In this document: one piece after another, positions 35,475-58,101 of the stretch
How positions within the stretch are numbered: the first letter of the stretch is position 1
Layout: the number at the start of each line of letters is the position of its first letter
Source: Phorcus lineatus
Lineage: Eukaryota > Mollusca > Gastropoda > Trochida > Trochidae
DNA: 64,000 nucleotides
Reading direction: 5' to 3'
NCBI GenBank assembly: GCA_921293015.1
Contig: OV121095.1
Span: 39,591,484 to 39,655,483 of the forward strand
Program-made: the position numbers and the translations under genes
Notes under the pieces: generated by a model
What the model was told of the DNA's origin: nothing
What the model saw: the letters and a program-made list of their open reading frames with translations, nothing else
The model's database searches: none

Positions 35475-35502
35475 GTATATATATATATATATATATATAT
35501 AT
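35475..35502. repeat. (TA)n microsatellite
   Basis: An alternating TA tract directly abutting the left end of the 35.5-kb palindrome. A shorter TA tract follows its right side near 35949-35961. Confidence 0.9.
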
Positions 35503-35539
35503 TCTTTAAAAATAACAAACTGAAGATTGGTCTTCATAT

Positions 35540-35588
35540 AAGTTCATTACCAACCGGTTTCACAACATAGTGATCATCAGGGTAACTT
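35540..35588 (-). ncRNA. Hammerhead-ribozyme-like motif (palindrome, left arm)
   Basis: Read on the minus strand: stem I AAGTT-ACC, box CTGATGA, a weak stem II (CAC/GTG-type), box GAAA, palindromic stem III ACCGGT, U at the cleavage-site position, then GGT ... AACTT closing stem I. Boxes and order match a type I hammerhead; activity is untested. Confidence 0.5.
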
Positions 35589-35819
35589 ATACATTGTGTT
35601 GCTAATAGTATAGCGTTAACAATGGCAAGGGACGTAATTCATGACGTCATATGCATACCACTAATACTATTAGCTAATAGTATAGCGTTAACAATGGCAA
35701 GGGACGTAATTCATGACGTCATATGCATACCACTAAAATAGTATTAGTGGTATGCATATGACGTCATGAATTACGTCCCTTGCCATTGTTAACGCTATAC
35801 TATTAGCAACACAATGTAT

Positions 35820-35868
35820 AAGTTACCCTGATGATCACTATGTTGTGAAACCGGTTGGTAATGAACTT
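35820..35868 (+). ncRNA. Hammerhead-ribozyme-like motif (palindrome, right arm)
   Basis: Mirror copy of the motif at 35540-35588, on the plus strand, with identical boxes. The two copies could pair with each other in a read-through transcript, which would compete with ribozyme folding. Confidence 0.5.
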
Positions 35869-35961
35869 ATATGAAGACCAATCTTCAGTTTGTTATTTTT
35901 AAAGAATATTTGATACATAAACCATGAACATTTAACTTTTACATCTATTATATATATATAT

Positions 35962-38440
35962 ATTCATTATCTCAATGGAATGCACGTATCTCTCACATAT
36001 GTGATTGATTCACATTTCGCGGATGAATGTAACCGCTCTATTTTTTTTATTTATTCTATTAGACTTTTATATATTGTGTGTAGAGTCGTTGAGTACATAT
36101 CTAATTTTATGCAATCGCGTTGGAAGGATTTCTCCTACTTTTAATCCTGCTGATGGACACACAAGATACATGTACCCCCGACATAATTATCTTCTGCAAA
36201 AATGAATCAAAAGACAAGATGTATATTTAATCAAACATTCTGTCAAGGTTATAGTTGGTGGTTAGGTGATTGAATGAGAAACTGATCTATCCTTATTTAA
36301 TCACAGACTAATTGTGATGATCTTCAAACAGTTTGAGGGACTATATTCAAGAAGTCAAATTAAGATGCAGTGTTTTTTTCCATGATGTTTCCATGCCATA
36401 CCTTTGATCTGTTAATTGAAAGCTTATACGTTTCAAAGCGACATCAAACACTCATTAACATATAATTATCATTTTCATTCAGCGATAGATAAACTGTAGG
36501 GTAGGAAAAGATACAAAACAAATTGCGACGTCAGGATGTTGAATCTACCATGCATGTCGGTTAAAAATGTGCTGTCTAAAAATGTGCTACCATCACGTGT
36601 GTTTAATGATTGTGAACACTTTTTTTAAAAATAAACAGACACATTACGTGTTATTTAGCGAGTGTGTAGTTTATATTCAAATACGTGTCAGTACAACTGA
36701 CTTAGTATTAAAGAAACCAGGCCTAGCTGATTTCAAAACCAGGAAGTAACAATGCATGAAAGACCTATTATGGTGACACTATTAGCACAAAGGGTATCGT
36801 ATGTAACAATATGATTTTATCCGGTCGTTAAAAAGATAAATGTAAGAAAATAACGTCATGAATGTAACAGGGTCATCGTAACTTCGGTCGGGAAACCGGG
36901 GTGAAAGAGAATTTATTTTGTTGTTCTGGAACTATAGACAACATTAAAGCATCGTGGAATAATCCTTTGACGCTTTTGAAACTTTGAGTTGAGATCTGGA
37001 TATACGAGCTGTAACGTGGAAATAGTTTTTTTTTGTTTTCTCATTTAATCAACACCGCAGGGCAACGTCAACTTCGATTTTTGCAAGCCTTTAACTACAG
37101 CTAACGGATAAAACATTAATTGTATTTTAGGGAAATTCAATTTCACTTGTGTAAATCTGATCTAACTTTAAGGATCCAAACTATTGACAAAATAACAAAG
37201 TGTCGGTTTTTGGAATGCGAAGGAATTTTCAAGGAAATAACACTTAAATAGATATCATTATAAAGGTATATGTAACAGTAAACATGGACGTAAAATAATC
37301 CATGGCGATGACATCACTTTATTGTATCGACAGTGGATATTTTCAGGAACCAACTGCTCATTCCTTTCCCAGTCATGTAGGCTATCATGGTTCCATTTGT
37401 ATGTCTGTTCACATAATTAACAACGGCAAATCCAAGACGTCGTAAATTTGAAAATAAACATCTTTCTAATTAGTTAAAGAGTGCTTGGATGGAACGCAGT
37501 ATGTCGTTGTGTCAAATATGTCAAACTTTATAAATGAAGTTATTACATAGATAAGAAGAGGTTGTTTCTGAAAATAAACATCTCATTGCTTATTAGTTAG
37601 CATAATGACAACAAATAGGAAAAAAGTCGACATTTGTGATCGAAAACGGTACTTTAGAAACTTCCAGGAGATCACTACTTAAGATTAGAAATAGAAATAC
37701 TAAATTAGGATGGTTTAACAGAGATTATTGTAATAAAGGGATGAAGATGGTAAGGTTAAACTGTTAAACTGAAACCCCTAATCATAAAAACATGTTTTCT
37801 TTTTTGTGTGTTTTTTGTGTTATTTCACTTAGTTGTGATCCTCAATAAAAAAAATTGAATTCACGTATCATGTTATTTGAATACCACAACTTTGTAAATG
37901 TATTTCGACTATTTAAGTATAGTATCAATTGTAGTGTTGTTAGTTGAAAATCATAAAGGATAGATGTAAGTTCCTTTGAGTCTCAAAATCTAATTAAAAT
38001 CAGTTAGAACCTATCATTCGTACGTCACAGCGTTTCTGATTTTAGAACTGCTCCACTGGTGACATTAACACTCTAGTCAATCAGAAACGAGGCTAGGAAA
38101 CAGTTCACACGTTATGAATTTTTGTAGGGCTATGATTGGTTGAGGTCTGGAAGGTGAAAGGTCGTAACATAATCTTAAAGATATTATATCCCAGTTTTGT
38201 ATCCGACTTCAATTCCCATGTTCTTAAAAACAATACATTCAAGTAAATAAAACACCAAACAGAATTTCGATGCGTCCTTTAATTAAAAAGATATAACGGT
38301 TCAAAGCGCGTAGAAATTGGCCACCTCGAAATCCCAATTAAAAAAGTCCCTAGAGTGGCCTGAGCTCTCCTTCGGCAGATGTGACGTCATAGACAGGACT
38401 CGCTCCGCGTTTGTTTGTAAACAAGTATATATCAATGCAG
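35962..38440. other. Intergenic; CRE-like site upstream of THAP exon
   Basis: No gene in the first 2 kb. Around 37985-38160 a segment (CAGTTAGAAC ... TTCTGATTT ... CCAATCAG-like) resembles 42420-42620 and may be an old dispersed repeat. TGACGTCA at 38382-38389 lies 100 bp before the THAP start codon and could belong to its promoter. Confidence 0.35.
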
Positions 38441-38481
38441 ATATGGGTCGCATTCGTCGATGTTTTCATTGCGATAGAGAC

Positions 38482-38922
38482 ATGCCTTCTTCCTGCGTTG
38501 CTGCCAACTGTACTAATAAGAAATCAGGAGACATTCAACTGCATCGGTTTCCGAAGGATCCTGTCAAATTCGCGAATTGGACAAAGTTTGTTAGTCAGAA
38601 AAGAGCGAAGTGGAGTCCCAATGACAGGTCTGTTATCTGCTCCGATCATTTCGCAGAGGACTGTTATGATCTTTCCTACGATTTCAAAGCGGACTTTGGA
38701 CTTGCCCCACAAAGGAAAAGACTCGTCAAGAATGCCGTACGAACAGTTGATAAACAAATGAAATTGATAACATGCCTGCTACCCGTCTGTCCAGCGAGAT
38801 ATGACAGTCAACCATATCGGAAGAGAAAACGGACGGAATACTTTGAGAAGAGGGAACGAAAGAGGGTAAGGAATTTGAAAGAAAGGCTAATTCAAAATTC
38901 TATTCCGGGGGAGGTGAGATAA
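38482..38922 (+). CDS. THAP zinc-finger protein (probably one exon of more)
   Basis: Starting at the ATG at 38482, the N-terminus is a THAP-type C2CH DNA-binding domain: C5-x4-C10, FP at 23-24, the invariant W33, then C53-x2-H56-F57. KNAVRTV at 83-89 occupies the place of the domain's AVPTIF box. A second, lysine/arginine-rich half (RKRKRTEYFEKRERKRVRNL) looks like a nuclear-localisation or basic coiled segment. Read straight through, the frame ends at 38922 after 146 residues. The end reads GAG-GTGAGA, a strong 5' splice donor, so the exon may stop at 38912. An upstream in-frame ATG at 38443 is possible, but THAP domains usually start within a few residues of Met. THAP genes occur both as host transcription factors and as the DNA-binding end of P-element-like transposases; I cannot tell which. 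Confidence 0.72.
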   Translation: MPSSCVAANCTNKKSGDIQLHRFPKDPVKFANWTKFVSQKRAKWSPNDRSVICSDHFAEDCYDLSYDFKADFGLAPQRKRLVKNAVRTVDKQMKLITCLLPVCPARYDSQPYRKRKRTEYFEKRERKRVRNLKERLIQNSIPGEVR

Positions 38923-41900
38923 ATAATCATGAAACTTTTGGGGAGTTGACTATAATTGATGATTTTGCAGACGAATGTTGAGTTTTTATCTGCATTATGA
39001 ATTTATGTCTCTTTAGATTAGTCGCAGAATTTATTAATTCAAACCCCATTAACTGTTTGAATTTTTAGTATTTGATTGAATATGGGGTTGAAAAATTCAT
39101 CGGGTTGAACTAAATAGTTATTTCAACATGTTGGAGACTATAATGAAATAATGTGCATATATATATATAGATCTGTAAATTATACACAGTGACAGGTTAC
39201 TAGTTTGTTACATTACTAGTTTTGGGGTATATATAAATTTTTTTGGTGCTGATTACTCTAAGGATACATACAAAAATGTGGGCAAGTCACTTATGTTTGT
39301 ATGTTGACACTACAGTTTGGGTTATAACATTTATGAAAAATTAACATTTCTTGCTACAGCGTCATTTTAGAAGCAACAAAAAGTAAAATTAAAGTAAAAA
39401 AGCTGCCCCGGAGATACATTTACCATTTTATGTAGCCTTACAGTGTATAACTTATAACCTATTATATATTGATAAACATTGCAGAATGAAATAAGATATT
39501 TAGTAATACAGATTTGTTAATATATTGTCATGTGTCACGTGTATTGACAAACCTAATTACCTTCATCAAGTTTCAATAAAGGTTGTTGATCATGGGTGAG
39601 GATAAAGTTTAGACAGGATAACTAATCAGTGCCTTGTGTATTACCTATTGGAAATGTGCCAGGTGCTGAGGTCATTAAGTTTATTGCTTAATCGCCATAA
39701 TGTTCAGGTGTGTGGCATTTCATGTAGACTGTTAGGTAATAACTTTATGACTATATTGTCTGGTGTGAAAAAGTAGTGTTAGGTAACTAAAAACCTCTCT
39801 ATGATAAAATACCGGTACTAAAGTACTGACGGAAATGGAAATAATATGCTTTTCAGCGTTAATATTTTTATTTAGTTGAAATAGTTAAAACTGAAAAATA
39901 ATTTCATATTTACGATACATTTCCAAGCAGGCTTTAACTTACATCACAATCAACAATAAATGTTGTGTTATTATTGACAATATTGGCCTACGTCACTCTA
40001 GATTAGTACCAGACTCTTTATCTCAAACATTGACCGTTACTCACACAAAAGAACAATAATCTGTATCCTTACTATGAAAAATACTTTAGTACGTAACTCT
40101 AAGTTTTTATGAAGGTGGCAAATTGCGAATCAAGAGGTACATTTACTAAACACATCAAAGATTTGATCTTCATTATCACTAATAACTGAGTAATAAGGCG
40201 AAAAACAGCTGCTCGGAACCTCGTATCCCAATGACGAGATCCGGAAGTTGCCGAGAGACAGACCATCGAAAGCGGGGTCTCATCGTTACATTCATGCAAA
40301 GCAGAAACACGGAGTTGCGATATTGAGTTGACACAAATGGCACAAAGTAGTAACAAGTATTCTACATATACAATGGTCAATCAACTACACAGGGGGATAG
40401 TCGATTTGTCGAGGTGTTCAAACAAAAAACAGTCACAATGGCGGCAGATATCAGTTTGGGTTCACTCGATCGGCATTATCGGAGATTAACAACCCAAACA
40501 AACAACAACAACAACAGACAGTTAATGTCAAACAGAATATGTCGATGTATTGATATTAATAGCTTTGGTGACTTAGGGGCATTTTTTATAAGTACAATCA
40601 GTGAAAATATATACGTTCACGACCGCTGGAATCTTTACTGTAAACAATGACACAGATCAGCCAGTCGTTAACGAGTCCTTTCTATGTCGTCACAACCCCC
40701 CTAGCACCTGATTGGCTAATAAAACGTTTCGCGTCTATTTTCCGGAAGTGTTTATAAAACACGTTTTTTCTGCTATTTTCAGGTGGATGTGAACCTAAAT
40801 AGTTGTTGATATTTTTTCTTAACTGTGTTATGAAGTATTTCCGCTAATCGTACCCCCTATGTGGATATATTATCTTTAACGACGTGACCCCGCAACGCAA
40901 ACATGCTTTGTCTGTATTCTTACGACTCACATTGTGACTATACAGCTATAAAGAAATCAGTTATAAAGAAATATTGTTACAATGGCAACGATAGGGAGAT
41001 GGGTTTGGTTGTTTTTACTGAAATCAGATTGCAACTTTCTCTTTTTAATCTATAACATTTATAGCATTTATACTGTCTAGAAAATTAAAAATATTATATT
41101 TCAAATATTAGTGAGTGTTGTAACGCATATATTTCAAAGCAGAATAAACAATATTCCACGTTCACTTAATGTTGAATTCAGCTGCTTTGAGCTTTGGCTG
41201 ACTTTGCCTGTCTGCATCATCAGCGACGACTTGATGACGATGATTATTTACTACATATTGCAAGTCTACCGACCGCAAGAACTTATGTAGTCCAACTATA
41301 CCCGGGAGGGATGGTCACTCTATGTGACTTATTTTACATTTTATCTAATTCATGATTCGACTAATGGTACCATGCTGTCAAATGTGTTTGCTTTCGCGAG
41401 AAATCTCGAGTTAATATTACTAATACCTTTAACACTTGTAATGCCATGCCAGTAAAATTTGATGCAAATTGCACTACAACAGGGTATCTCTTTAGAAGAC
41501 ACTATAAACGCTTTTATACTGCTTATCAATGCTTACACCACTGCAATATGTAAAATATTGTCTACTTTCACAAAGTTCGTTCCAAAACCACGATATCGAT
41601 AGCCCCATGGAAAGTTGTATTAACTGCTAACACAGGAGAAACGATTACCCTGTCGGTTTGAAACTTCTAACACATACATCTTCAGGACATATGTTGCTAT
41701 AATCAAATTTACTGACTGCAATACAGCTCGCCTCTGCTAAAACAATGTTAAGACAAGAAACCAAATACATCCTACAATTTACAATTTACATAACACATAC
41801 TTTTTCAAATGATACCGAATATAAATTTTGGCACTTATAATTACATGTGAACACATAAACACGAAGCCATTCTTAGAAAAATGAAGTAAAATATATAATA

Positions 41901-44060
41901 ATAGATCAACGCCACTAAACATGCAAAGTTGAGTGTTTTAAGAGATTATGAGAAGGTATAAGGGTTTTCAAAAAAAACGATGTAAGATATGTACATATCC
42001 GCCGATATATGGTTTGACAGACTTACTATTCACATTTAGTAATCACTTGCTGGTCTTTTACGAAAAATCGCTATAGCTTGTTTTAACACAGGTTTTCTAC
42101 AGATTACCTATGTGTGAGACTTGATTATAAGGGATAATTGCCGTTTTAATTGAATGTTTTAACGAGAAAGCCGTGACTTCAAATGATACCATAAATTGCA
42201 ACCACATTCTTCTTTCTTGTTCGTGACAAAAAGAATTGGCACTTTCTCCCAGTTGTCATCTTCCATCACGACTTATTGAATTCACGTCAAATATAAGTGG
42301 ACCTCAAGAACTTTATCAGTAATTTGTACTTCGACTATATCAGTATTGGATCAATGAAAGCTCAGTCAGTTGACAGTCCAATTGTTAGATGTGTGGAGCA
42401 GGTTATAGCGACTTTCAACCTCATTAAAACAGTTAGAACTAATCATAAGCACCTCACTGCTTTTCTGATTTGAGTACTCTCAACAAGAGCCAATTTCACA
42501 TCAGCCAATCAGTGACAGGATTAGAAAACCATCAACACAGTTTGATATTTATAGAGCTTAGTTTTATATTCTATTCAGGTGAAAGGTAATAGACAAGGTC
42601 ACTGACAGGACCCCTATGGAGTAGTACTCAGATCTTAAATGCAGCCAGGTACGGAACGTAAATATACCTTTCATTGTGTTCTTATTCTATTCTTATTTTA
42701 TAAAATGGATATATGCTTAAAGGATGTAGGAATGAAATACATTAATAAATTTTAAAGGATCGAAAATTCTACATGTTGTATGAAAAAAATATAAAGTTGA
42801 ACTTCATTGCTTATTCACCATGTAAAGTAGAACACGTAAAAACATAATTGAAACACACTAATCTATTACTGTTTTCCCAAAAGAATGGCATTCTATTCGA
42901 ACAGTCTTCTCTTCGGTGGAAAGAGATTCCACTCAAATTAGTTTTCAACGAGTTTGTAAATACTTATTCTTGTCTTTTCAACAAACACAATCAAAGAAAC
43001 CTCTGAAAAACATCGTCCAAACACAAGCTAGTTATTGTATAGCCATTCTCTTAAAATGACATTTTCCTCGTTTAGCTCATGGTTTTCATAATTCCCATTT
43101 CAAAAGATATATGATATCATCGAAATATCATCATGGTACATAAATCAAATAATGGCAAGATGAGATAAATGTTAGCTTAGATAATTAGAAACAAAACTTA
43201 CAGAAAAATACCAGGCTTTCCTACTGAGACATTAATCTGTTTGTACGGTTAATCAGACATATAAACATGGTGGGGTTAAAGTTACGAATAATTAAGCAGC
43301 AGACACAAGGATGAAAATTTACTTATCATCTTAACTCACTATTCAAAAGTTATCATTGAAAATAAGTATCTGATCATAAAACTGCCATCGGGTAATGAGG
43401 TCATAGAATTATGATGTCTTCAGCATTAGGACTTTGAAGCAGTGTGACATTATTTCGTGATGTTGAAGTATCATCATCCATGTTATCAGTATGCCATTAT
43501 GAGGTCATTAAGTAATGATTTATAAACTCAATAAGTATTTGGTTATTGCGATATCTACAATAAAGTTATCGCTTGGTCTCACAGCAGCATTATTAAGAAA
43601 TATAAGATACCCACGGCATTGAAACAATGGCGAACAATGGGACCGACGATGTGCTTTATTTGACGATACAACCATGTGCGAGGTTAATGACGTCATTTCA
43701 CATAACGTTACAAATGACGTCATATTGGCCAAGTCCATTGCTCAAACTTGAGGGGGCTATTGTCCATGGCTGACTCTTTCGATTCGAAACCAAAAGGAGA
43801 GGTGTGGGTTTACAGAGAAAGAAAATCACGGATTAGAGACGTAACGTATCCCCTGGGGACATTTTCAAATTCATATTGATTATTCAATAAATTAGATTCT
43901 ATTTATATTGCAGCGCCCAACCCTATACATGATAATGGACTCGTCCGAATATGTTCTACGGCGGGAGGCATCATTGTTTTCAAAATGTTTCTGTTAAAAA
44001 TACCATAATTTTTCAACTGTTTTTATATATAAAGCAAGTAATTGTTAAGGGTATCTCATA
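38923..44060. other. Intergenic, promoter-like motifs near 40.4-40.75 kb
   Basis: No gene is convincingly present. At 40435-40450 CACAATGGCGGCAGAT resembles a YY1 site or a start codon in good context (78-codon frame, no motif). ATTGGCT (40711) and CCGGAAGTG (40742-40750, ETS-like) follow. Together these could be a promoter, but no downstream exon was identified. TGACGTCA is paired at 43688-43695 and 43715-43722. Confidence 0.3.
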
Positions 44061-44210
44061 TAAGAAATAGAAAACTAGTTGTTGTGCATCTATCGTTGAA
44101 TAAAACATAGCAGGGAGCATAAACACTCAGGGCTGCGCACTTCGTGTTTTATACTCCCTGCTATGTTTTATTCAACGATAGATGCACACCAACTCGTCTT
44201 CTATTTCTTA
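44061..44210. repeat. Hairpin element, about 65-bp arms
   Basis: TAAGAAATAG at 44061 and CTATTTCTTA at 44201-44210 are the outer ends. The arms run inwards through GTGCATCTATCGTTGAATAA and CATAGCAGGGAG, pairing almost completely. The loop near 44130-44150 contains CGCACTTCGTG. It is non-coding and of unknown family. Confidence 0.8.
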
Positions 44211-44235
44211 AATAAAGTTCGCTCTACCCCAATGT
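44210..44235. repeat. 26-bp inverted repeat, left arm
   Basis: AAATAAAGTTCGCTCTACCC plus CAATGT is the exact reverse complement of 45790-45815. The pair encloses the MULE at 44476-45715 but lies well outside its termini and target duplication. Confidence 0.85.
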
Positions 44236-44466
44236 AGACTACCGTCTGTAGTGTTTGCTACATAACAGTCTACCTGGTACGGTCCGGTTGTCATGTTAGT
44301 TTTTCCAGGCATTTATAATATAACGGAAGTGAAGAGTATATGTATCTGCGCATGAGCAGGTTGGTGAGAGCATTATGGAATAAAGCGGGAGCGATGAAAC
44401 GCTATGCTGACTGAATGTTGTTTTTGGCATGCGAAATGAGAAATGCGAAGTTGCATGGTTTCGATA

Positions 44467-45724
44467 CGTCTTGCGGGGTCTAGGACAAATGCCACCCGGA
44501 CAAATGCCACCCGGACATAACCCACCCGGACAATTGCCACCAGGACAAATGCCACCTAGGACAAATGCCACCTCGGACAAATGCCACCCAGACAAAAGCC
44601 ACCTAGGACAAATGCCACCCAATAATTTAAAAAACAACAAAAAACGATATTTGACTCATGATATATGTATATTCTGTAAAAACAAGTGATCATGTTCTTG
44701 TTTTCAGCACTATAATGTATTCAGCACTACATTTGACATTACCACTAGGCAAATCATTGCATTTCACGCATACACATGTGTATGTCAGTTCACTGTCAGT
44801 TCAAAGTCGGATGTTGTGTGCAACACTCCTCAGGTAGTCAATTTGTTGTCTGTTCCTGAAGTCTGCCGCGATGGTCTGCAGACGCTGCTGGCAATCCCTG
44901 TACTGTTTCCTGTGTCGGGCAACGTTCTGGCCGGCCAACATCTGCGTGATGACCTGGTCGTTCAGGGCTTGTTCCTTCCTCAGAACCTCAAGGAAGCGCC
45001 AGATGCTGGGATGACAACCAGCCATGCTGGTCAGAAGTCTCCGGTGCCATCCCTCAAGATTGTTGTTTGTCCTAGGCAGGTCTGTCAGTGTCCTCTGATG
45101 CTGGTTCCAGCTCGAGATGGCAAACATCGGGGGTCGTCGTCCTCGGTGATGCAACCGCCCAATGTAATTGTCCTCAAAGTAGTCAACGACTGTCTGCAGG
45201 GAATCAGGTAGAGTTTCGGCCAGCGTCTCGAAGGCATCGATCACCTGGTCCTCGGGGATGAATGCCAGAGCTGGTATTATCCTTGCCTGCATCTGTAGCT
45301 CGGGCGATGCTGAATATTCACCCTGTAGCCTGTAATTTTTATTAAGAAAACACTGATAGGCATGACATGACAATGTCTCCTTAAACATAGTGTTTATATG
45401 AAGAAACTATTGTTTCATCATTTTAGTTTTATATGATTGTCCGTTTTATATGATTTAGTTGAATATGATAATAATAGTAGAATATTGTTGTGATTTTTCA
45501 ATATTTTTAATATTTTTTGATATTGTAGTTAAAGGTATATATTGCTTCTTGTAATATTAAAAACATAACTTTATTTTTTGTCTTGTAATATTAAAAAAAA
45601 CTAGGTGGCATTTGTCCTAGGTGGCATTTGTCCTAGGTGGCATTTGTCCTGGTGGCAATTGTCCGGGTGGGTTATGTCCGGGTGGCATTTGTCCGGGTGG
45701 CATTTGTCCTGCTCCCGTCTTGCG
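44467..45724. mobile_element. MULE derivative with tandem-repeat terminal inverted repeats
   Basis: The body at about 44476-45715 (1.24 kb) is flanked by a perfect 9-bp direct repeat, CGTCTTGCG (44467-44475 and 45716-45724), the size expected of a Mutator-like target duplication. The ends (44476-44620 and 45600-45715) are inverted copies of one another and are built from 16-17 bp units, GGACAAATGCCACCCG and variants (CATAACCCACCCG, CAATTGCCACCAG). The order of variants is the same in both ends for about 100 bp, so they were copied as a block. The interior carries a C-terminal MULE transposase fragment on the minus strand. Confidence 0.82.
44801..45329 (-). pseudogene. C-terminal fragment of a MULE transposase
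   Basis: The minus-strand frame encodes a segment typical of the region after the DDE domain in animal FLYWCH/MULE transposases: RIIPALAFIPEDQVIDAFE, VVDYFEDNYIGR, RRPPMFAISSWNQH, then the signature TNNNLEGWHRRL and HPSIWRFLEVLRKEQ. It ends at a stop at 44801-44803. The frame is open up to about 45388, but the first 20 residues of that read are unlike the family. AAATTACAG just before 45329 looks like a 3' splice site, so homology, and probably the exon, begins there. The FLYWCH finger and the catalytic residues are missing. Either earlier exons were lost or the element is an internal-deletion derivative. It is expected to be non-autonomous. Confidence 0.75.
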
Positions 45725-45789
45725 ACACGACACCGTCCTCGTGCTTTAACTAAAATAGTTCAGGGCAAAACTTTACTTAATTACAAAAC

Positions 45790-45815
45790 ACATTGGGGTA
45801 GAGCGAACTTTATTT
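45790..45815. repeat. 26-bp inverted repeat, right arm
   Basis: Exact inverse of 44210-44235. Sequence beyond the arms does not match. Confidence 0.85.
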
Positions 45816-48800: not shown

Positions 48801-49285
48801 TCCCCAATTGGCTACAGGGCTGTCACCTTCTGATAACAAATAACACATGATGTGAACAGAAAACATTTTCCTCCTTATTCAGAACTACCTGTCAATTACT
48901 GATTTCGTTTTTGTTCACCAATCTCGTCCAAATGATGTCTCTAAACATTAAACTTGTCAGAGGTTGTGTAAATGCGCGTTGAATGGGTACAAAGTAACTG
49001 CCACGTTATTGATGATTATTCATTGTTAGTGTTTATGATTTATGTCATACCATTGAGTCTCTCTTTTAGGGTTAAATTGAATGTCAAAATGCAGTCGCCA
49101 CTGTTTCAGATAATTTGAGTTGCCCAAGTGCTTTTAAAATATGTATTGTATTTGATTGACACGTTTACGAGGGAATTGGTTTTAGATTTCTATATTTATA
49201 ATTGCATTCATTCGGACCAATAAAATCATGATTTACAAAACGTTTACAGATTTGAATGTTACATAGCATTTTTTCTTTTGTCTAT
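45816..49285. other. Intergenic, no gene seen
   Basis: Candidate promoter features only: AAGCGTGATGGCGGACTG at 46066-46082 (YY1-like) and a CRE-like pair AACGTCATTCAATTGTTACG at 46497-46516 that resembles 27340-27370. Short frames at 46203-46403 and 46811-47050 (minus) show no motif. Confidence 0.35.
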
Positions 49286-49290
49286 ATTTG

Positions 49291-49520
49291 GGGCAGGATA
49301 GCGCAGGGCATAGCGCTTTAGGCTTTTGATCCGTAGTTCGAATCCCGTTGGGTGCTCGGCAACTTTGTCTGCAGTAGCGAACTGTTCTGTACGCAGTGTC
49401 GCCCCTGGTTTGCTTGTTCCAGCCGATACTCGCAGGTTTCACAGCAATGCATAGCCATTATGGTGTTGCGGGCTTTCTCCCTTCAATAACACTACTTACA
49501 CTAGCAACGTTTAAACCTAG
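49291..49520 (+). mobile_element. tRNA-like SINE
   Basis: A box-A-like GATAGCGCAGGGCATAGCG (49298-49316) and a box-B-like GTAGTTCGAATCCC (49332-49345) lie 20-odd bases apart, as in a tRNA. The head is followed by a longer unrelated body up to about 49520 (TTTCTCCCTTCAATAAC near its end). It does not fold as a good tRNA. It differs from the element at 1912, so it belongs to another SINE family. Confidence 0.55.
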
Positions 49521-50280
49521 ACCACCTCACCTGTTAAGATAAGCAACAAGACGAAGGCGATTCCTTTTACTCAATGCAGTGATAATTCGTGTTCAGGATA
49601 AATTTTTGTATCCTGATTTCAAAAGATTGCCATATAACCTTTATCTAAGTTTTAACATGGAATGGTAACGTGTTGACAAGATTATACTATATATACTTTC
49701 CTTATAATTTTGTTACGATATATTCGGAAACTCTGATAAGACAAGAGCCTCAAACATTAAACCATTTTGTGATGAATGCAAACAAAACATATCTTCACAA
49801 AATGAATTCATGCCAATAAAGGATGCAATTTCTATACTTAATGGATTCTTTTTATTTTTCGAAATAATTCAAACTTTTTTGGTTTTAATTTGCTAAACAA
49901 AAACAAACTTTATGCAGTTCTTCATATACTGTATTTTTGCCAATAACAACAAGTCAAGCACTTGCCTTAAGGTTTACTCTTTTTCTACTATTAATTCATT
50001 GTTTATTTACCAGGTACTTTATTGTCCTCAAAAACGTTTTATCAGACATTATAACCAACATGAAATGCGAGTGTGGTTTTCTTTGAAAATATGACTTTGA
50101 TATGTGTGTTCGAGTTGCTTGTCAACTTTCTGATGGATAGTTTGTCAACCTTTTTGATCCTAATTACCTGTATACAGGGTGCTGAAGAAGTGTTTTAAGT
50201 GTTATAACATGTAAAATGCTACCATGGATTTCAGTGTCCTCAAATGAAATACTTGTTACATTACATCATCACAGCATATA
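49521..50280. other. Intergenic, no gene seen
   Basis: AT-rich, nothing recognisable. Confidence 0.4.
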
Positions 50281-50284
50281 GGTG

Positions 50285-50700
50285 CATAGTTCTATTATAA
50301 GCTAGTTCTAATACAACATTTCAAAAGATCAAAATAAAAATGCTACATCTGTATATACCTGATAATTAACAGAAGCTTTCGATTGATACAAACGTTTGTA
50401 ACACTGTTTAAAAAAATGTGACATGTTCTCTAAAATTCAAGTTACAGAAAAATATCAACATTTACATCAATATCACCACAGATTATCAATGACAAGAACT
50501 GTAAGTATTATAAGCTAGTTCTTACACAACAATTAAAGAGATTAGAAATGAATTTTTCTCCAATATGTGTTATAACAAAACGAAGTTTTCGATTGGCACT
50601 AACTTTGGTAACAATGTGTTTAAAAACGTAGACATTTTTCAAAACTTCTGCTTGCAGGAAGATATCAACATTTACATCAATATCTACACAGTATATTATA
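50285..50700 (+). repeat. Diverged tandem duplication, about 212 bp
   Basis: TATTATAAGCTAGTTCT at about 50295 recurs at about 50507. Both units continue through GTTTTCGATTG or GCTTTCGATTG, GGTAACA/TGTAACA, and end with ATATCAACATTTACATCAAT. Only about two-thirds similar by eye, so old. Confidence 0.7.
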
Positions 50701-53430
50701 AAAAGTACTATATTGTAGGTGTAGTGGATCGAAATAAATTAAGTTTGTTTAAGCGCAAATATTCAAAAGATGACAAATAATGTAACACTTCTGGTTATTA
50801 CTTGCGTGACGACATGAGACTTACTTTTTTATTCTGTTAGAATGGATCATTTTCTTAACTTTCGATTATCATCTTTAGTTCATCAATTGTTAAGATTTTA
50901 TAATGGCACCTCAAAAACTAAAGGAATTCGTTTGTAGGCAGTTGTGTTGGAAGTCCTTAAAGATGAATGGTTTGACATCAGACCATGCCAGTAATTACAG
51001 ACACATCCATTATTTGTGCTTCTTTAAAAAAGATAATTGTAATTTCACCAAGCTGTGATCTTTCTCATTTTGGTAAAATTAAATTCACATCAAGGAGTAT
51101 TGGAGGCAAACAAATTTAAATGTCATTTCTCTCTACCACAGTTGGTTGCTGTGTCAATCTAAATTTAAAGAGATAGGATGTTCGATTTTTTATCTACTCG
51201 TACAGTATAGAAGCCGTGTTAGAGTCTATCAAACACATATTTACATACTAGTACAAACAAGTGATTAACATCAACATAATACAATCATACCCATACGATT
51301 AATTAATTACTAAATTTTAAAGCCATGGGGAAAATGTCATAATATTCCACGTTGTTGAAATAATGGGATCATTTACATTTACAGAAATATAGCAGCCTCA
51401 CAAATGTTATTATACAAGCTCCAATGTCTGGCAGTGGAAAAGTTCCTGATGTTAGTAAGGTCATACGGCTAATAGTGCAGTCAAATATTTCGTTACACGT
51501 ATATCTACGCGATAAGCATTATTGAGCTTGTGCAAATTTAAATAAGACGGTCACACAAATTGTTATGTTTACACAAATCTTTAAGTAGCTTCTGGTTAGT
51601 GCAAAATAGTTATAAGTAAATCCTGTAATATACTTATTGTATTATATCCAATTAAAATCATTTCAAGGACTACGGGGGGAGTCATGTTTAAATCAACTAC
51701 AAATAAAATACAAGCATTTTGTTTATCTCGCCAAAGATCGTCATAGATTTATATTTAATTATATTTTTTGCAACAAACTAAGTACCATTCATGAGTATTC
51801 ATTTTGAGAACACATTGTTAAAATGGAGACTCTAATCAGAAATTAGATTTCTTTAAAATACACTTGGAAATGCGATTAAGGCTTATGAACAAGTGAAAAT
51901 CACAAGACACAAAATAAATTGAATCACTGTTTGGTAAAACGTTCACTGAGTACGCAGTCTGGTCTAAAACAGGAAATTGGTAGTCGACACATGTCTCCAC
52001 TTTTGATTGTAAAGATTTACTTTCACAAGAAGATTTTGTTGATTGCTGCAAATATCCATGCAAGGTCGAACACTGGCAATCACAAAAAATCTCATTATTG
52101 CGACCTCAAGAATAACAATAAAATTGTATACATCGATGAGAAAATTCGTGTCGAGCTTTTGTTTTCAAACAGGAGCAAATAGCTTACCCTTCCAAGGGTC
52201 ACTGAAGCACCCCAACCGTCCCGTAAAGATATTGACTCAATAGGCGGTGTATAACAGAGGCTTAGCGTGTGTTTTATAAGTGGATTTGATCTCCCTCGTA
52301 AGCATCAAATATATTTTGTGTGATGGATCCATTGTGTTGACCAAGGTTATTTCTCAAATTCCTAAATGTTATTTAGGAAACGCATTAATGTCTTGCCTAA
52401 ATATACGATGTTCCCTTTAGAAATAACATCATCACTGCATATTAACTAGTTTGTCTCACATTTAAACTTTTCGACTTTTGTTTCTGTAGTTTTAAGAAAA
52501 TGTATGTTTGCTTAAACGAAATTAAGTAACAGACAGGATTGAAAAGGTTGCTAAACGTTATTCGTACATCAGAAAAACACTTGGTAAAGAATCGAAAATA
52601 AAGTATTTGAGTCTCTCCACGAGTGGTTTAAATTACATCAAATTGAATGTTTCCTTTCACAATAGAGTATAGAACACCAAAAATAATTGAAGCACACTTT
52701 ACTGTTTTCTGTTTTCCAGAGTAGTTAAAAATAATGACATGCTATTTGAATAGATTTTACGTTTGTTGAGGGAGATTCCATTCAAATTACACCGCTTGCA
52801 AATATGTTTGAAACTCATTTTACCAGACAAGACTACATAACAAACATGTCCCCAGTGTTGAAGAAAGTAAGTATCCTCATTGTTAGCATAAACATTGTTC
52901 CTCAAAACCGTTATATCAAGGACATTTAGCATAATAACAAGATGACCATGATACATTTTTGGATTTCTCTTTAAATTTTAAGTTTCTCCTTATGTCTCTT
53001 AACCTTTCAATTTGTTAAATCCGTCAAAACGCTGGCATTTGTAAGAAAAACGTTCTTAGCATCCTAAGGGTTTTTAAGTAGAACATTATTATCTCTAATG
53101 CCGCTTTTATTCGTAAATTGACCATACTAGCACGTTTTTTAAAGATTTATTTTCTTCAAATTGTCCCTTGTAAATTATTTTATTCCAAATGGTTAGAATA
53201 TTTTATTATTCAATCTTATAATCCGTATTCGTAGATGAAGTAATCAAGTAGGCCTATCAGGAAAAATCACTGGCTTCGAATAAGTGTGAAAACTATTCAT
53301 TGAGGTAAGTAAATGGATTTGCAAAGCTTAACAGTTCATGATATGTTTATTTTAAAACTGTTGCTATTGATTAAAACAAATGGCCATAAGTATTAAGTTT
53401 CGTTATATCACTTCAATTATCTAAAAACTT
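50701..53430. other. Intergenic, no gene seen
   Basis: AT-rich. Short frames of 60-87 codons on both strands have no recognisable motif. Confidence 0.4.
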
Positions 53431-53459
53431 TAACTTTGTATCGCAACATATTTTGCGTT

Positions 53460-53660
53460 GTCCATTTAGGCCTCGGGATGCTTCGGCTCAGCTTCAATGT
53501 AGTCAGCCGACTAGTGAATAAATATATCCGGACAATACATGTAAAGGATCGTCCCCGTCCTGGTAGACTTCGTGCAGTCACACTTCTATATGTTAGGGCT
53601 TTATTGCGTCATGTTCGGCGTGCATTACCGTCGTCAACATCGCCGCCGAAGTAGCCAAAC
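53460..53660 (+). pseudogene. Tc1/mariner transposase relic (HTH part)
   Basis: The translation GMLRLSFNVVSRLVNKYIRT followed by DRPRPGRLRAVT resembles the second helix-turn-helix and the GRPR-like AT-hook junction of Tc1-type transposases (consensus VSRL...RY..T..V.DRPRPGRPR). The frame then decays and stops at 53654. No DDE catalytic motifs or terminal inverted repeats are visible, so this is a fragment of a long-dead copy. Confidence 0.6.
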
Positions 53661-53909
53661 TGTGCACAGATGGCTCATAATTAATTAGCCAGTAGAGTCA
53701 TTAAAAGTCCATACCTAACACTAAAATCTCAAATCATTTCCACTGTTTGGGATGCTAAAAGAATGTTTTGCTATTCTGGTGTGGTTCTTAAACTTCAAAT
53801 ATCAAAGAGCAAGGTTATCTAGGTAAAGTAAAGGAAACACTTTTGCATACAGCGGAAACATAGTTACTCATTAGGAAGTTTGTCAACAGTCATTAGTAAA
53901 TTGGTCGTG

Positions 53910-54145
53910 TAAATGCTAAGAAAATACATATATATTTTTGTGTTTCATCTCCAATGTTTTTTGAAAAAAAACTTTAACCAAAGGGTTAGAAATCCTAAAA
54001 AAATACATATATGTTGTGGTGTTTCATCTCCCAAGTTTTATGAAGAAATCTTTAAACCATGTGTAAGAAATGCTTAGAAAATACATATATGTTGTGGTGT
54101 TTCATCTCCAAAGTTTTATGAAGAAATCTTTAAACCATGTGTGAC
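53910..54145 (+). repeat. Three-copy tandem repeat, about 78 bp
   Basis: AAATACATATAT ... GTGTTTCATCTCC ... GTTTTATGAAGAAATCTTTA is repeated three times. The last two copies are nearly identical and the first is diverged. Confidence 0.85.
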
Positions 54146-54960
54146 ATGAATAAGATTGCATATTTTCTATTTTGAGGGTTATCTGGTTTGACTTTTAAAA
54201 ACTTTATCTTCTTTTAAAAGCAAGAAGTCAGTAAATTGTTATCTTTATTGAGCCGAGCATAGTTAGCATAGGTAGGTAAACGGTATATAAACGATAATGG
54301 GTCTCTGACCGTGACCTGTAACTTTGAAGGTGAACATTCAAACAAAGGTTATAGATTAATAGTTGGTAAACATCTTGGTTCGAATGACAAAATTAATAAC
54401 CTCCACCCTAAATTTCGATATGCGAATCACTGATGCATTGTCAAGACATGTTCAAAGTTTCAGAAAAAAATATAAAACTCTTGAAGAAGTTGAATTCACG
54501 AGGCAGGCAATGTCAGCTTGAAAAGCCTGAGTCGACAACTTTAAGTCATTGGCCTAACTCCAAATCAAAGCATCATGCCGAGGTGATCTAATAATAATGA
54601 TAATAATGATAATAATAAGTAGTCTTGTATTGCGCCAAAATACTCCAATCACGCAAATGTGGTTAACACATGGTGGTTTTTGTGGAACAAGTGAGTATTG
54701 AGCTCTGACTGAAATGTGTCTCGGGATGGACGGATTTGTCTAATCTAACCAAAGAAGTTTAACACATTTCACTAGCAGAATTAATATAAATAAAAGCTAT
54801 CAATTATATCCACACTCTATTAACATCATGTTTTAATCGAAATACATCATATTTAGTCAAAAGTAGTCCAATGAAGCTTAGAATGTGTGCACTGAGTATT
54901 GTAATTTGTTTCATATATCCACATGCCTTTAAAAAATCATAATCTGAAAATAAACGTTAA
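54146..54960. other. Intergenic with a TAA/ATG microsatellite
   Basis: A short mixed (TAA)n/(ATG)n run lies at 54589-54618, followed by TCTTGTATTGCGCC, which may be the end of a dispersed repeat. No gene. Confidence 0.4.
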
Positions 54961-54964
54961 TCTT

Positions 54965-54966
<2 letters not shown>

Positions 54967-55013
<47 letters not shown>
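54967..55013. repeat. (TA)n microsatellite
   Basis: About 46 bp of alternating TA directly abutting the 3' end of the Penelope-like element on its right. Confidence 0.95.
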
Positions 55014-55017
<4 letters not shown>

Positions 55018-55045
55018 AGACAAAAAATGACACATAGCCATCATT

Positions 55046-55079
55046 ACTCCAACATGTTTCATTGATATCTTCAGGGAGT
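55046..55079 (-). ncRNA. Hammerhead-ribozyme-like motif (Penelope element 1, 3' end)
   Basis: Minus strand: stem I ACTCC, box CTGAAGA, very short stem II (ATCAAT), box GAAA, palindromic ACATGT, one U, then GGAGT closing stem I perfectly. The weak stem II is the least convincing part. Confidence 0.5.
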
Positions 55080-55186
55080 CTTACAAAAACAGTTATGACG
55101 TTATGATGTCACAATATAATTGACATAACAATGGTATGACGTCACAATATAGCAAGTGGTAGGATGGACACAATATGTTATTATTC

Positions 55187-57559
55187 TTAAGCATTAAGTT
55201 GAGGTTTTAACATTTTAATGAAAAAGTCTTCTTTCAACTGACGCATTATTCTATCATTTGTATCCATTTTGTAGAATGGGAATATTTTGAATTTAATGTC
55301 TTTGTCTTTTGCACATGTATCCAAGTGGGCACTAAGTGGTATACAACGTGTCTCAGGACATTTTATTTGTTGTTTATGGACGCGGACTCTGTCTCTGAGG
55401 CACTCAGTTTGTCCAATATATTCACCGGAACACCCTTGACATATAATGACATATATGACATGTTTTGCTGCACAATCAATATTGGAGCGCACATAAAATC
55501 TCTCGTTTCTGTTTATGAATTTTATACTGGAATTTTCAAAAATATATGGACATGTTCCACAATTACCTCTGTTACATTTAGAAACTCTGTACTCTGGAGA
55601 GGTAGTGTTTGAGTCAAATCTTGCCTTAGTTAAGCACTGCTTTAAATTTTTACTTTGGCGTTTACTTTTGATAAAATTAACATTATCAATTATTTTGGAC
55701 ATTTTTTCATCACACATGAGAATAGGTGTGTTTTGTCTAATACTCTGGAACATATCTGGATTGAGTGGATTATGTGTTGAGACATATGCAATATCAATTG
55801 TTTCAGATTTCTCTTTCTTCCTTACTGTTAAGAGTTCTCTTCTTTTGATGGATTTTGCTTTATTGATTCCATCCTCAACCAGAAACGGCGGGTATCCTCT
55901 TTTATGAAGCAACACTTTTAGTTCTCTGAGTCTGATATCCCTTGTATCTTCATTGGAACAGATCATGCAAATACGTCTTGACAGGTTGTATGGGATACTT
56001 CTCTTTGTATGTGATGGGTGACATGATGAAAAATCCAAGTATTGCTTAGTGTCGGTAGGCTTATAATACAAGTCTGTCTCTAAAAGACCGTCTGATATTC
56101 TAACAATAGTATCCAAGAAGGGAATTTCATTGTCACTTGTTTCCATAGTAAACACAATGTGTTCGTTCATTTTATTCAATGTCTTGTAGAACGTATCTAG
56201 TTGGTTATTTGAGAATGGCCATAAAATGAAACAGTCATCTAAATATCGACGCCAATGTTCAATGAAGTAGTTACAGATTTCACTACCTAAGTTTTCCTGT
56301 AACTTGACAATTAATTTGTTCTCAATATATCCTAGCACCAAGGTTGCGTATGTTGGTGCCATTTTTGTACCCATAGCCGTACCTTTAATTTGCCTGTAAT
56401 GTGTACCGTCAAAGAAGAACACATTGTTTGTTAATATGAATTTCACACTTTCAAGAATAAAAGATTTAGTGAATCTTTCAGACAAAAGCTCTGGGTGCTT
56501 GTCAAGCCAGTATTCTATTGCTTCAAGTCCCAGTTCATGAGGAATATTGGAATATAAACTTTTAACATCAAATGTGACTAATTTGGTATTATCAGGGATA
56601 GTTTCAGGCAGAAAGTTTATGAAATCCATTGTATCTCTGGTATAACTTCTTACTTTAGTAAGATATGGTTTCAAAAGAATATCTATGAAATTGCTCAAAC
56701 GATGTGTCCCACAACTAGGACCGGCAATTATTGGTCGTAATTTAAGATCTGTGGGATGTTCACATGTGATATACTTTTCCGAAGAGTTAGCACATTTCTC
56801 TGTAATATCTTTGCATTTATGAATTTTAGGCAAACCATAAAAGTTGCTTTCTTTACATGGAAAATTTGTAAGATAGTCAAATTCCTTATTTGTCATTACA
56901 TCTCCAAAATGTTTGAGAAATTTATTCAATCGTTTTAATGTATAGATATCCTTTGTCTCCTCATAACTTTCCTTATCATTTAACATTTCTAGGGACATTC
57001 TAACATAATTTTCAACATCCATTATTACAACTGCGCCGCCTTTATCTGCTTCTTTGATAATAATACTTTTATCGTTACACAGATTTTTTAAAGCATCTCT
57101 CTCTAAAATAGAAATATTGGTTTTATTCTTATTTCTAAAACATGTGCTAGGAATATGTGATATGGTTTCTACGTATCTGTCTAAATTAACATTCCTACCT
57201 TTTCGGGGAATCCAATTACTTTTGTTTTTAACAATGGAAGTATCCTCAATATTATCTTGATCATAGAAATATTCAGTATTGCGCAAATGGCGACTAAATT
57301 CACTTATGTCTTTTCTTAATTCTTCAGTGTTTGGCCTATCTGGTGAAGGGGTAAATTTTAAACCTTTGCTTAAAATGTTTATCTCAATGGATGTTAAATC
57401 CCGTTTTGAGAGGTTCACAATTTTTACATCCTCTTCTTCATGTGATGGTTCCTTATCCCCTTCTGGGTTGAACTTCTTCCCGGCTCTAAAAAACAGTTCC
57501 GGTGTACCGGTGAATATATTGGACAAACTGAGTGCCTCAGAGACAGAGTCCGCGTCCAT
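55187..57559 (-). CDS. Penelope-like reverse transcriptase with GIY-YIG endonuclease
   Basis: The frame is uninterrupted for about 790 codons from the first ATG (57559) to the stop at 55187-55189. The parts, in order: a conserved N-terminal segment (ADKGGAVVIMD), NFYGLPKIHK, LRPIIAGP, reverse-transcriptase motif A (FDVKSLYSNIP, near 56560), motif B (GTAMGTKMAPTYATLVLG), the catalytic YLDD (about 56234-56245), a CNRGNCGTC zinc-binding-like linker (about 55550-55577), and a C-terminal GIY-YIG nuclease (VIYVIIC ... GEYIGQT, about 55410-55440). The reverse transcriptase copies the element's RNA at a target nicked by the nuclease. The first 20 or so residues, up to FTGTP, are read from the antisense of the inverted repeat arm, so the natural N-terminus is missing. 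All core motifs are intact. A GTG-initiated extension to 57610 is not credible. Confidence 0.9.
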   Translation of the reverse strand: MDADSVSEALSLSNIFTGTPELFFRAGKKFNPEGDKEPSHEEEDVKIVNLSKRDLTSIEINILSKGLKFTPSPDRPNTEELRKDISEFSRHLRNTEYFYDQDNIEDTSIVKNKSNWIPRKGRNVNLDRYVETISHIPSTCFRNKNKTNISILERDALKNLCNDKSIIIKEADKGGAVVIMDVENYVRMSLEMLNDKESYEETKDIYTLKRLNKFLKHFGDVMTNKEFDYLTNFPCKESNFYGLPKIHKCKDITEKCANSSEKYITCEHPTDLKLRPIIAGPSCGTHRLSNFIDILLKPYLTKVRSYTRDTMDFINFLPETIPDNTKLVTFDVKSLYSNIPHELGLEAIEYWLDKHPELLSERFTKSFILESVKFILTNNVFFFDGTHYRQIKGTAMGTKMAPTYATLVLGYIENKLIVKLQENLGSEICNYFIEHWRRYLDDCFILWPFSNNQLDTFYKTLNKMNEHIVFTMETSDNEIPFLDTIVRISDGLLETDLYYKPTDTKQYLDFSSCHPSHTKRSIPYNLSRRICMICSNEDTRDIRLRELKVLLHKRGYPPFLVEDGINKAKSIKRRELLTVRKKEKSETIDIAYVSTHNPLNPDMFQSIRQNTPILMCDEKMSKIIDNVNFIKSKRQSKNLKQCLTKARFDSNTTSPEYRVSKCNRGNCGTCPYIFENSSIKFINRNERFYVRSNIDCAAKHVIYVIICQGCSGEYIGQTECLRDRVRVHKQQIKCPETRCIPLSAHLDTCAKDKDIKFKIFPFYKMDTNDRIMRQLKEDFFIKMLKPQLNA

Positions 57560-57748
57560 AAACAACAAATAAAATGTCCTGAGACACGTTGTATACCACT
57601 TAGTGCCCACTTGGATACATGTGCAAAAGACAAAGACATTAAATTCAAAATATTCCCATTCTACAAAATGGATACAAATGATAGAATAATGCGTCAGTTG
57701 AAAGAAGACTTTTTCATTAAAATGTTAAAACCTCAACTTAATGCTTAA
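57501..57748 (+). pseudogene. GIY-YIG fragment in the inverted arm
   Basis: On the plus strand this segment reads GEYIGQTECLRDRVRVHKQQ and continues to KPQLNA and a stop at about 57746-57748, the same C-terminus as the element's main frame. It has neither a start nor a reverse transcriptase. It is the coding part of the inverted 3'-end copy and provides the antisense used as the N-terminus of the main frame. Confidence 0.85.
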
Positions 57749-57855
57749 GAATAATAACATATTGTGTCCATCCTACCACTTGCTATATTGTGACGTCATA
57801 CCATTGTTATGTCAATTATATTGTGACATCATAACGTCATAACTGTTTTTGTAAG

Positions 57856-57889
57856 ACTCCCTGAAGATATCAATGAAACATGTTGGAGT
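57856..57889 (+). ncRNA. Hammerhead-ribozyme-like motif (inverted arm)
   Basis: Same sequence as 55046-55079, on the plus strand. A transcript of the whole element in either direction would contain one copy of this motif in sense. Confidence 0.5.
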
Positions 57890-57959
57890 AATGATGGCTA
57901 TGTGTCATTTTTTGTCTTTGAATATATAATACTGTATACTTGTGAACTCTTTTTCAAAT

Positions 57960-57963
<4 letters not shown>

Positions 57964-58029
<66 letters not shown>
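57964..58029. repeat. (TA)n microsatellite between two Penelope-like elements
   Basis: About 66 bp of alternating TA. The outer end of the first element's inverted arm lies on its left and the 3' end of the second element on its right. Confidence 0.95.
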
Positions 58030-58033
<4 letters not shown>

Positions 58034-58072
58034 AAAAACAAAAGTCTGGAAATGATTTCAATCCCCGACCGG

Positions 58073-58101
58073 TTTCACACTATTCAGTGATCATCATGGG
58101 G
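58073..58101 (-). ncRNA. Hammerhead-ribozyme-like motif (Penelope element 2)
   Basis: Minus strand: stem I CCCC, box ATGATGA (A replaces the usual first C), stem II CACT-GAAT-AGTG, box GAAA, palindromic ACCGGT, C at the cleavage-site position, then GGGG. Stem I and stem II are perfect; the C-to-A change in the core would probably lower or abolish cleavage. Confidence 0.55.

Follow-up and report, generated by a model that had tools for sequence, protein, structure and literature searches.

Hammerhead-type motifs at the ends of Penelope-like retrotransposons in Phorcus lineatus, including a family with an altered core

Minimal type I hammerheads of Penelope-like elements (PLEs) were reportedly described by Cervera and de la Pena in 2014 and by Lunse, Weinberg and Breaker in 2017. 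We analysed a 64,000-nucleotide stretch of the genome of the gastropod Phorcus lineatus (contig OV121095.1, positions 39,591,484 to 39,655,483; hereafter the window), in which five hammerhead-ribozyme-like motifs at Penelope-type termini had been proposed from the letters alone (hereafter the sequence-only reading). The five motifs are genuine hammerhead-type RNA elements at PLE ends, an association that is already known, while the near-fixed, uncompensated change of C3 in one multiplied PLE family, here called family C, appears to be the new feature and deserves an assay.

That minimal type I hammerheads occur in PLEs and act as dimers is established (PMC6155905, PMC7229834, PMC7761336, PMC6466107; here and below, statements on cited papers refer to the parts of their text available to us), and a review states that they need a tandem arrangement (PMC6466107). 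The motifs of P. lineatus share with the PLE hammerheads of 2014 and 2017 the type I motif at element ends, the self-complementary stem III and the proposed dimer action, and differ from them in that family C has A for C at position 3 and in that neighbouring motifs are mostly inverted (51/60 pairs) rather than in tandem as PMC6466107 demands. PAc, the Poseidon element of Anolis carolinensis (PMC11167929), is likewise a GIY-YIG-bearing PLE with a hammerhead and an AT-rich target; both DNA strands are cut and extended, reverse transcription begins at two adjacent internal sites without strand difference, and insertion in vitro does not depend on cleavage. We propose the same for P. lineatus, i.e. 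extension of both strands, a tail lying between two reverse transcription start sites and cleavage-independent insertion. Unlike family C, in which the change is fixed in a natural family, PAc has a canonical core whose loss was engineered, and its copies are in tandem whereas those of P. lineatus are mostly inverted.

Such a tail has also been described for PLEs before (PMC3846280, PMC11167929). The Penelope families of Adineta vaga (PMC3846280) resemble those studied here in their inverted pseudo-long terminal repeats (pLTRs), the optional short tail on one of them and the palindromes at inverted junctions, but have low copy numbers, and the term hammerhead is absent from the part of that text available. 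U10.1-U11.1 mismatches and palindromic stem III are described in PMC3088659 (including the legend of Figure S8), and in the axolotl family HHR_Amex2 helix II has a U-U mismatch at its base (PMC7229834). Both have the U-U apposition and the weak palindromic stem III in common with the motifs of the window; the axolotl hammerheads differ in forming tandem repeats (retrozymes) instead of PLEs, and those of PMC3088659 in that their natural C3 variant is a paired exchange, U3/A8. Minimal type I PLE hammerheads, dimer action via a palindromic stem III, the inverted one-tailed layout and the U-U mismatch are therefore already published.

Five motifs in three insertions

All five motifs were recovered at their proposed places and strands, both by direct read-out and by a strict descriptor scan of the two strands ([CA]TGANGA, 4-24 nt, GAAA, a 6-base palindrome, a non-G base and at least three stem I pairs), which returned these five and no sixth. 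Markov controls of order 1 and order 3 (100 sequences each) gave means of 0.0 and 0.01 matches per window, respectively. Since the 35-kb pair and the 55/57.9-kb pair are arms of inverted repeats, the five sites represent three insertions; thus their presence stands, but not their independence, as the two inverted repeats reduce them to three families, A, B and C, with one insertion each:

35499..35671, minus strand: family A insertion, left arm, 173-bp inverted repeat, 100% complementary to the right arm
35737..35909, plus strand: family A insertion, right arm, partner of the 173-bp perfect inverted repeat
35546..35586, minus strand: family A hammerhead (GTTACC, CTGATGA, TCACTATGTTGT, GAA, ACCGGT, T, GGTAAT)
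35822..35862, plus strand: family A hammerhead of the second arm, identical in sequence to the first
54968..55013, no strand: left-end (TA)n tract of the family B insertion
55007..55434, minus strand: family B insertion, left arm, 428-bp inverted repeat, 100% complementary to the right arm
57501..57928, plus strand: family B insertion, right arm, partner of the 428-bp perfect inverted repeat
55046..55079, minus strand: family B hammerhead (ACTCC, CTGAAGA, TATCAAT, GAA, ACATGT, T, GGAGT)
57856..57889, plus strand: family B hammerhead of the second arm, identical in sequence to the first
55187..57610, minus strand: family B open frame, 807 aa as listed, RVT_1 and GIY-YIG, both under the Pfam curated cut-offs
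57961..58029, no strand: (TA)n tract separating the insertions of families B and C
58063..58101, minus strand: family C hammerhead-like motif (CCCC, ATGATGA with C3 to A, TCACTGAATAGTGT, GAA, ACCGGT, C, GGGG)
58248..59729, minus strand: family C open frame piece, 493 aa, RVT_1 just under and GIY-YIG above the cut-off

The 428-bp inverted repeat of family B encloses the frame with the RVT_1 and GIY-YIG matches. In the frames of families B and C, respectively, Pfam matches have E values of 1.4e-5 and 1.1e-6 for RVT_1 and of 6.2e-4 and 3.1e-5 for GIY-YIG, i.e. a reverse transcriptase (RT) and a C-terminal GIY-YIG domain lie in one frame, as in endonuclease-bearing PLEs, and the assignment to Penelope-type elements is borne out by these matches in frames adjoining the motifs. 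The family C frame, next to the 58.1-kb motif, is 53% identical in protein sequence to that of family B. Family A loci outside the window carry RT/GIY-YIG frames as well, the best of which (locus L016) encodes a protein sharing around 60% identity with family C and 50% with family B.

Elsewhere in the window, at 44068-44203, a long imperfect hairpin matches MIR859 and MIR1509 under their gathering scores and is probably a short inverted-repeat element.

Fold, palindrome and covariation

Families A and B have the conserved core CUGANGA ... GAAA ... UH. Genome-wide, the patterns CTGAWGA..GAAACCGGT and CTGAWGA..GAAACATGT occur at 506 and 625 sites, compared with 3 and 15 for reversed-pattern controls; judged by stem II, 9/100 and 21/100 of the matches listed, respectively, belong to other repeats. 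A search without a palindrome requirement (core, GAAA, U16.1 and one C-G stem I pair) yielded 2401 sites vs 95 in the control, and among 100 matches listed the six bases were palindromic in 73, where 1 in 16 would be expected: AGCGCT in 29, ACCGGT in 21, ACATGT in 15 and AGTACT in 8. By eye, nine of the 27 non-palindromic sites are decayed copies of known families, the remainder being background-like. With a G-C pair closing stem I instead, 370 sites were found vs 120 in the control, and no hammerhead family was seen by eye among the 100 listed.

Over seven families, two-sided changes affect 5/6 pairs of stem I, 3/4 of stem II and 2/3 of the palindrome. Overall, 87.4% of the cells are paired (stem I 90.5%, stem II 70.8%, and 100% for the palindrome, through which some of the families were found). 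The covariation score of 0.755 compares with 0.243 in shuffles, is reached by 0/500 of them, and falls to at most 0.202 when the partners are slid. Because families A, B and B2 were found via their palindromes, the independent evidence for the palindrome comes from families D, E and E'; the palindrome-free search, for its part, presupposed the invariant first pair of stem I.

We further built a covariance model, R1, from six sequences outside the window, including B2 with its variant, a relative of family B, and the motif of locus L115 (F), whose host is not shown to be a PLE. When the window was scanned with filters off, the five sites ranked top (E 2.9e-5, 2.9e-5, 1.3e-4, 1.3e-4 and 0.027), and the sixth match had E 0.62. 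Taken together, these results support the sequence-only reading as to the hammerhead-type motif (descriptor scan, covariation and a model built outside the window), the covarying stem I and the self-complementary stem III, the latter being palindromic unasked in most sites listed and covarying between families.

Its observation that stem II has a U-U apposition at its base holds for families A, B and C, but not for the genome in general: families D and B2 have G-C there, family E has G-U and E' has A-A. Beyond U-U, stem II has two standard pairs in family A and four in family C. The accompanying claim of novelty fails, because U10.1-U11.1 mismatches are already in print, also in the axolotl family (PMC3088659, PMC7229834).

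Other hammerhead-like repeats were encountered in the genome. Locus L115 contains two copies of a motif in which a long stem II and a stem I of 3 bp accompany the palindrome AACGTT. Loci L049-L053 and L059-L064 show CTGATGA, mostly with a stem II, followed by GAAACCGGTC or GAAACATGTA, and little or no stem I; together with the remainder of L046-L053, they were left out of the counts as other repeats with a strong stem II.

Family C and core position 3

In the hammerhead core, C3 pairs with G8. The C-to-A change noticed in the 58-kb copy is real; it is not confined to that copy, however, but is family-wide, which gives it more weight than the sequence-only reading assigned to it. A family C pattern with position 3 left free matched 273 sites, and 0 in the control. 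In the 100 of these listed, position 3 is A in 98, G in 1, T in 1 and C in none, with G8 unchanged, and stem I, stem II, the palindrome and the remaining core bases are all kept. Of 20 loci retrieved for their resemblance to the 58-kb end, not for the motif, 18 contain it, with A3 in 18/18, and A3 is present in all of 40 distinct 195-base family C sequences from the loci fetched. Lacking a C3 paired to G8, family C is classed as hammerhead-like and not as a consensus hammerhead.

Given A3 with an unchanged G8, the C3-G8 pair is lost, and cleavage should therefore be badly impaired. A paired natural exchange, U3/A8, is known in hammerheads (PMC3088659), and C3G alone abolished cleavage of a PLE hammerhead (PMC11167929). 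To judge from its sequence, family C most likely cleaves poorly or not at all, yet it has multiplied. The letters themselves cannot separate a substitution of C3 by A from a retained C3 plus an inserted A, with a 3-bp stem I.

A search for A3 in other families gave 1092 sites vs 246 in the control, an excess larger than family C alone; the 100 matches listed comprise family C members, decayed ones included, a single decayed copy from another family and a background-like remainder. Pairwise identities of family C copies mix in flanks and indels and were set aside. No PLE family with C3 to A was found in the literature searched, which is weak evidence of absence; the primary papers of 2014 and 2017 may contain core variants. 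The portions of PMC10085705 and PMC11014351 available likewise hold no such case.

Layout, insertion and role of the motif

Neighbouring pairs within 10 kb were counted, list by list, from 307 listed sites that belong to families A to E, leaving out the other repeats of the 506- and 625-site searches (9/100 and 21/100 listed sites) and taking 37 of the 100 listed sites of the palindrome-free search (families D and E). Of 60 pairs, 51 face outward, 8 are direct and 1 faces inward, so that the tandem arrangement of two motifs which PMC6466107 gives as a feature of dimeric PLE hammerheads is not the usual one here; the pLTRs known from PLEs, either direct or inverted and optionally tailed, are present. 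Considering 35 outward pairs of families A, B and C, from loci fetched largely because they contained close pairs, one short and one long tail were found in 32 (A 13/15, B 12/13, C 7/7), two short tails in the other three and two long tails in none. In the copies inspected, short tails mostly run into (TA)n. One of the three two-short-tail pairs, L013, sits in a larger inverted duplication with like flanks.

Several loci show additional arrangements. The region of around 7 kb at L013 (C1:36717300-36725250) carries hammerheads of families A, D and E, and looks like a larger inverted duplication because the outer flanks of its outward-facing A pair are near-identical. At L021 (C2:62720900-62721700), at least seven intact family A hammerheads follow each other head to tail on the minus strand, mostly 48 bp apart, and small direct duplications of the motif occur in families B and B2 (L030, 54 bp apart; L039, 33 bp apart).

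We propose that the motifs are minimal type I hammerheads belonging to three endonuclease-bearing PLE families, and that they sit some tens of bases into the 3' tail of what would be the element RNA, with stem I closed by the flanks and stem III shrunk to a 6-base palindrome. As stem III is only a palindrome, a full hammerhead would need two RNAs paired through it. The RNA tail end may be copied by priming at both sides of a break in AT-rich DNA, which would yield the observed outward-facing inverted arms with one short and one long tail; in the simplest reading, each insertion consists of two cDNAs, one started from either side of a single cut. Copies would be expected to break at the cleavage site if the template were usually cleaved RNA. 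In family A, 32-mers upstream of, across and downstream of this site occur in 314, 300 and 299 copies, the first with one degenerate base, and the stretch across it in family C occurs 249 times vs 273 pattern sites, at unequal stringency. Copying through uncut RNA thus appears to be the rule even for the canonical-core family A, i.e. the template RNA probably ran through the hammerhead uncut. Together with the multiplication of family C, this suggests that self-cleavage is not required for insertion, in line with published in vitro results on another PLE. We put the probability of this explanation as a whole, i.e. PLE hammerheads of three families, two-sided insertion, an uncut template and the multiplication of family C despite an impaired core, at around 0.8.

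Several results weigh against it. Three of the four RVT_1/GIY-YIG matches score under the Pfam curated cut-offs, stem II of family B (UAUCAAU) has no standard pair adjoining the core, two of five covariation measures (two-sided-change pairs and further pair types) were matched by 45/500 shuffles, and the homodimers predicted for D and E do not adopt the hammerhead fold. The cleavage-site counts leave room for cleavage of RNAs that never become templates. The Rfam hammerhead models had no match at gathering thresholds in the whole window and none up to E 10 over 34000-60000, the matches listed being unrelated families, mostly microRNA hairpins, all under gathering scores; this is presumably because these models need a closed stem III. 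The check by covariance model thus came out negative with Rfam and positive with the model fitted to sister families, and the lack of such a match, which the sequence-only reading named among the grounds for giving up its claim, would have misled if Rfam alone were used.

ViennaRNA favours homodimers over two monomers by 5.0-8.3 kcal/mol, and those predicted for A, B and C pair through the palindrome and stem I; such folds would fit a dimeric ribozyme and a dimer-linkage site alike. Two insertions of family A, differing in their flanks, are each made up of a pair of tails joined at AACCGGTT, i.e. at stem III:

C5:11114700-11114960 (L124), no strand: short palindrome, perfect or nearly so
C7:9039500-9039760 (L125), no strand: short palindrome, perfect or nearly so

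In most other short inverted pairs examined, the fusion point lies elsewhere than the palindrome.

On this evidence it is possible, if doubtful, that the motif is kept mainly as a structure, linking RNA to RNA or marking the tail for a protein so that both cut ends are primed, with cleavage secondary or lost. The palindromes vary between families and remain self-complementary, the fold of family C is kept despite a core change expected to be damaging, insertions look two-sided, and family A copies are unbroken at the cleavage site and in the two cases above fused at the palindrome; but a dimeric ribozyme needs the same palindrome, most of the short inverted pairs are fused away from it, and, apart from C3, the core bases show no drift, something that pure structure does not demand. 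That last point is what continued selection on catalysis would predict, and family C may be an active ribozyme with an altered core, in which A3 is tolerated or C3 is kept with an A inserted before U4. A 3-bp CCC/GGG stem I followed by C3 is equally compatible with the sequence and active natural core variants exist (PMC3088659), but the pairing of C3 with G8, the loss of PLE hammerhead cleavage by C3G alone (PMC11167929) and the unchanged G8, where the known natural exchange alters both partners, lead us to regard an active family C as unlikely. It is tempting to speculate, with still more reserve, that family C is a lineage which gave up catalysis and kept the hammerhead fold and palindrome for RNA-RNA linkage or tail marking, priming both cut ends with one short and one long tail.

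Two further explanations concern the identity of the elements. Metazoan retrozymes, small tandem repeats spreading as circular RNA, share the type I hammerheads, and small direct motif duplications occur here too (L021, L030, L039). The motifs of P. lineatus, however, adjoin RT and GIY-YIG frames and lie mostly in outward-facing rather than direct pairs, and the short tandem repeats of around 150-450 bp with a hammerhead and no frame that mark retrozymes (PMC7229834) are not what we find; no multi-copy tandem arrays of that size with these motifs were seen in the loci fetched, and retrozymes are very improbable. Least credible of all, to the point of being negligible, is a chance resemblance or a set of DNA-level terminal inverted repeats of a DNA transposon. 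The 35.5-kb insertion alone does resemble a short inverted-repeat element, but chance predicts 0.00-0.01 motifs per window, the stems covary, and the same termini occur on elements with RT and GIY-YIG.

The role of hammerheads in PLEs was called a mystery in a 2020 review (PMC7761336). A multiplied, C3-replaced family beside a canonical-core relative of around 60% protein identity in the same genome amounts to a natural experiment on the need for cleavage, and offers a simple comparative assay. Entire families can escape searches that require C3 or, like those with Rfam, a closed stem III. If family C were inactive, this would favour the palindrome as a dimer-linkage site, and if catalysis was indeed lost with the fold kept, the hammerhead of these elements would be a dimer-linkage site first and a cutter second.

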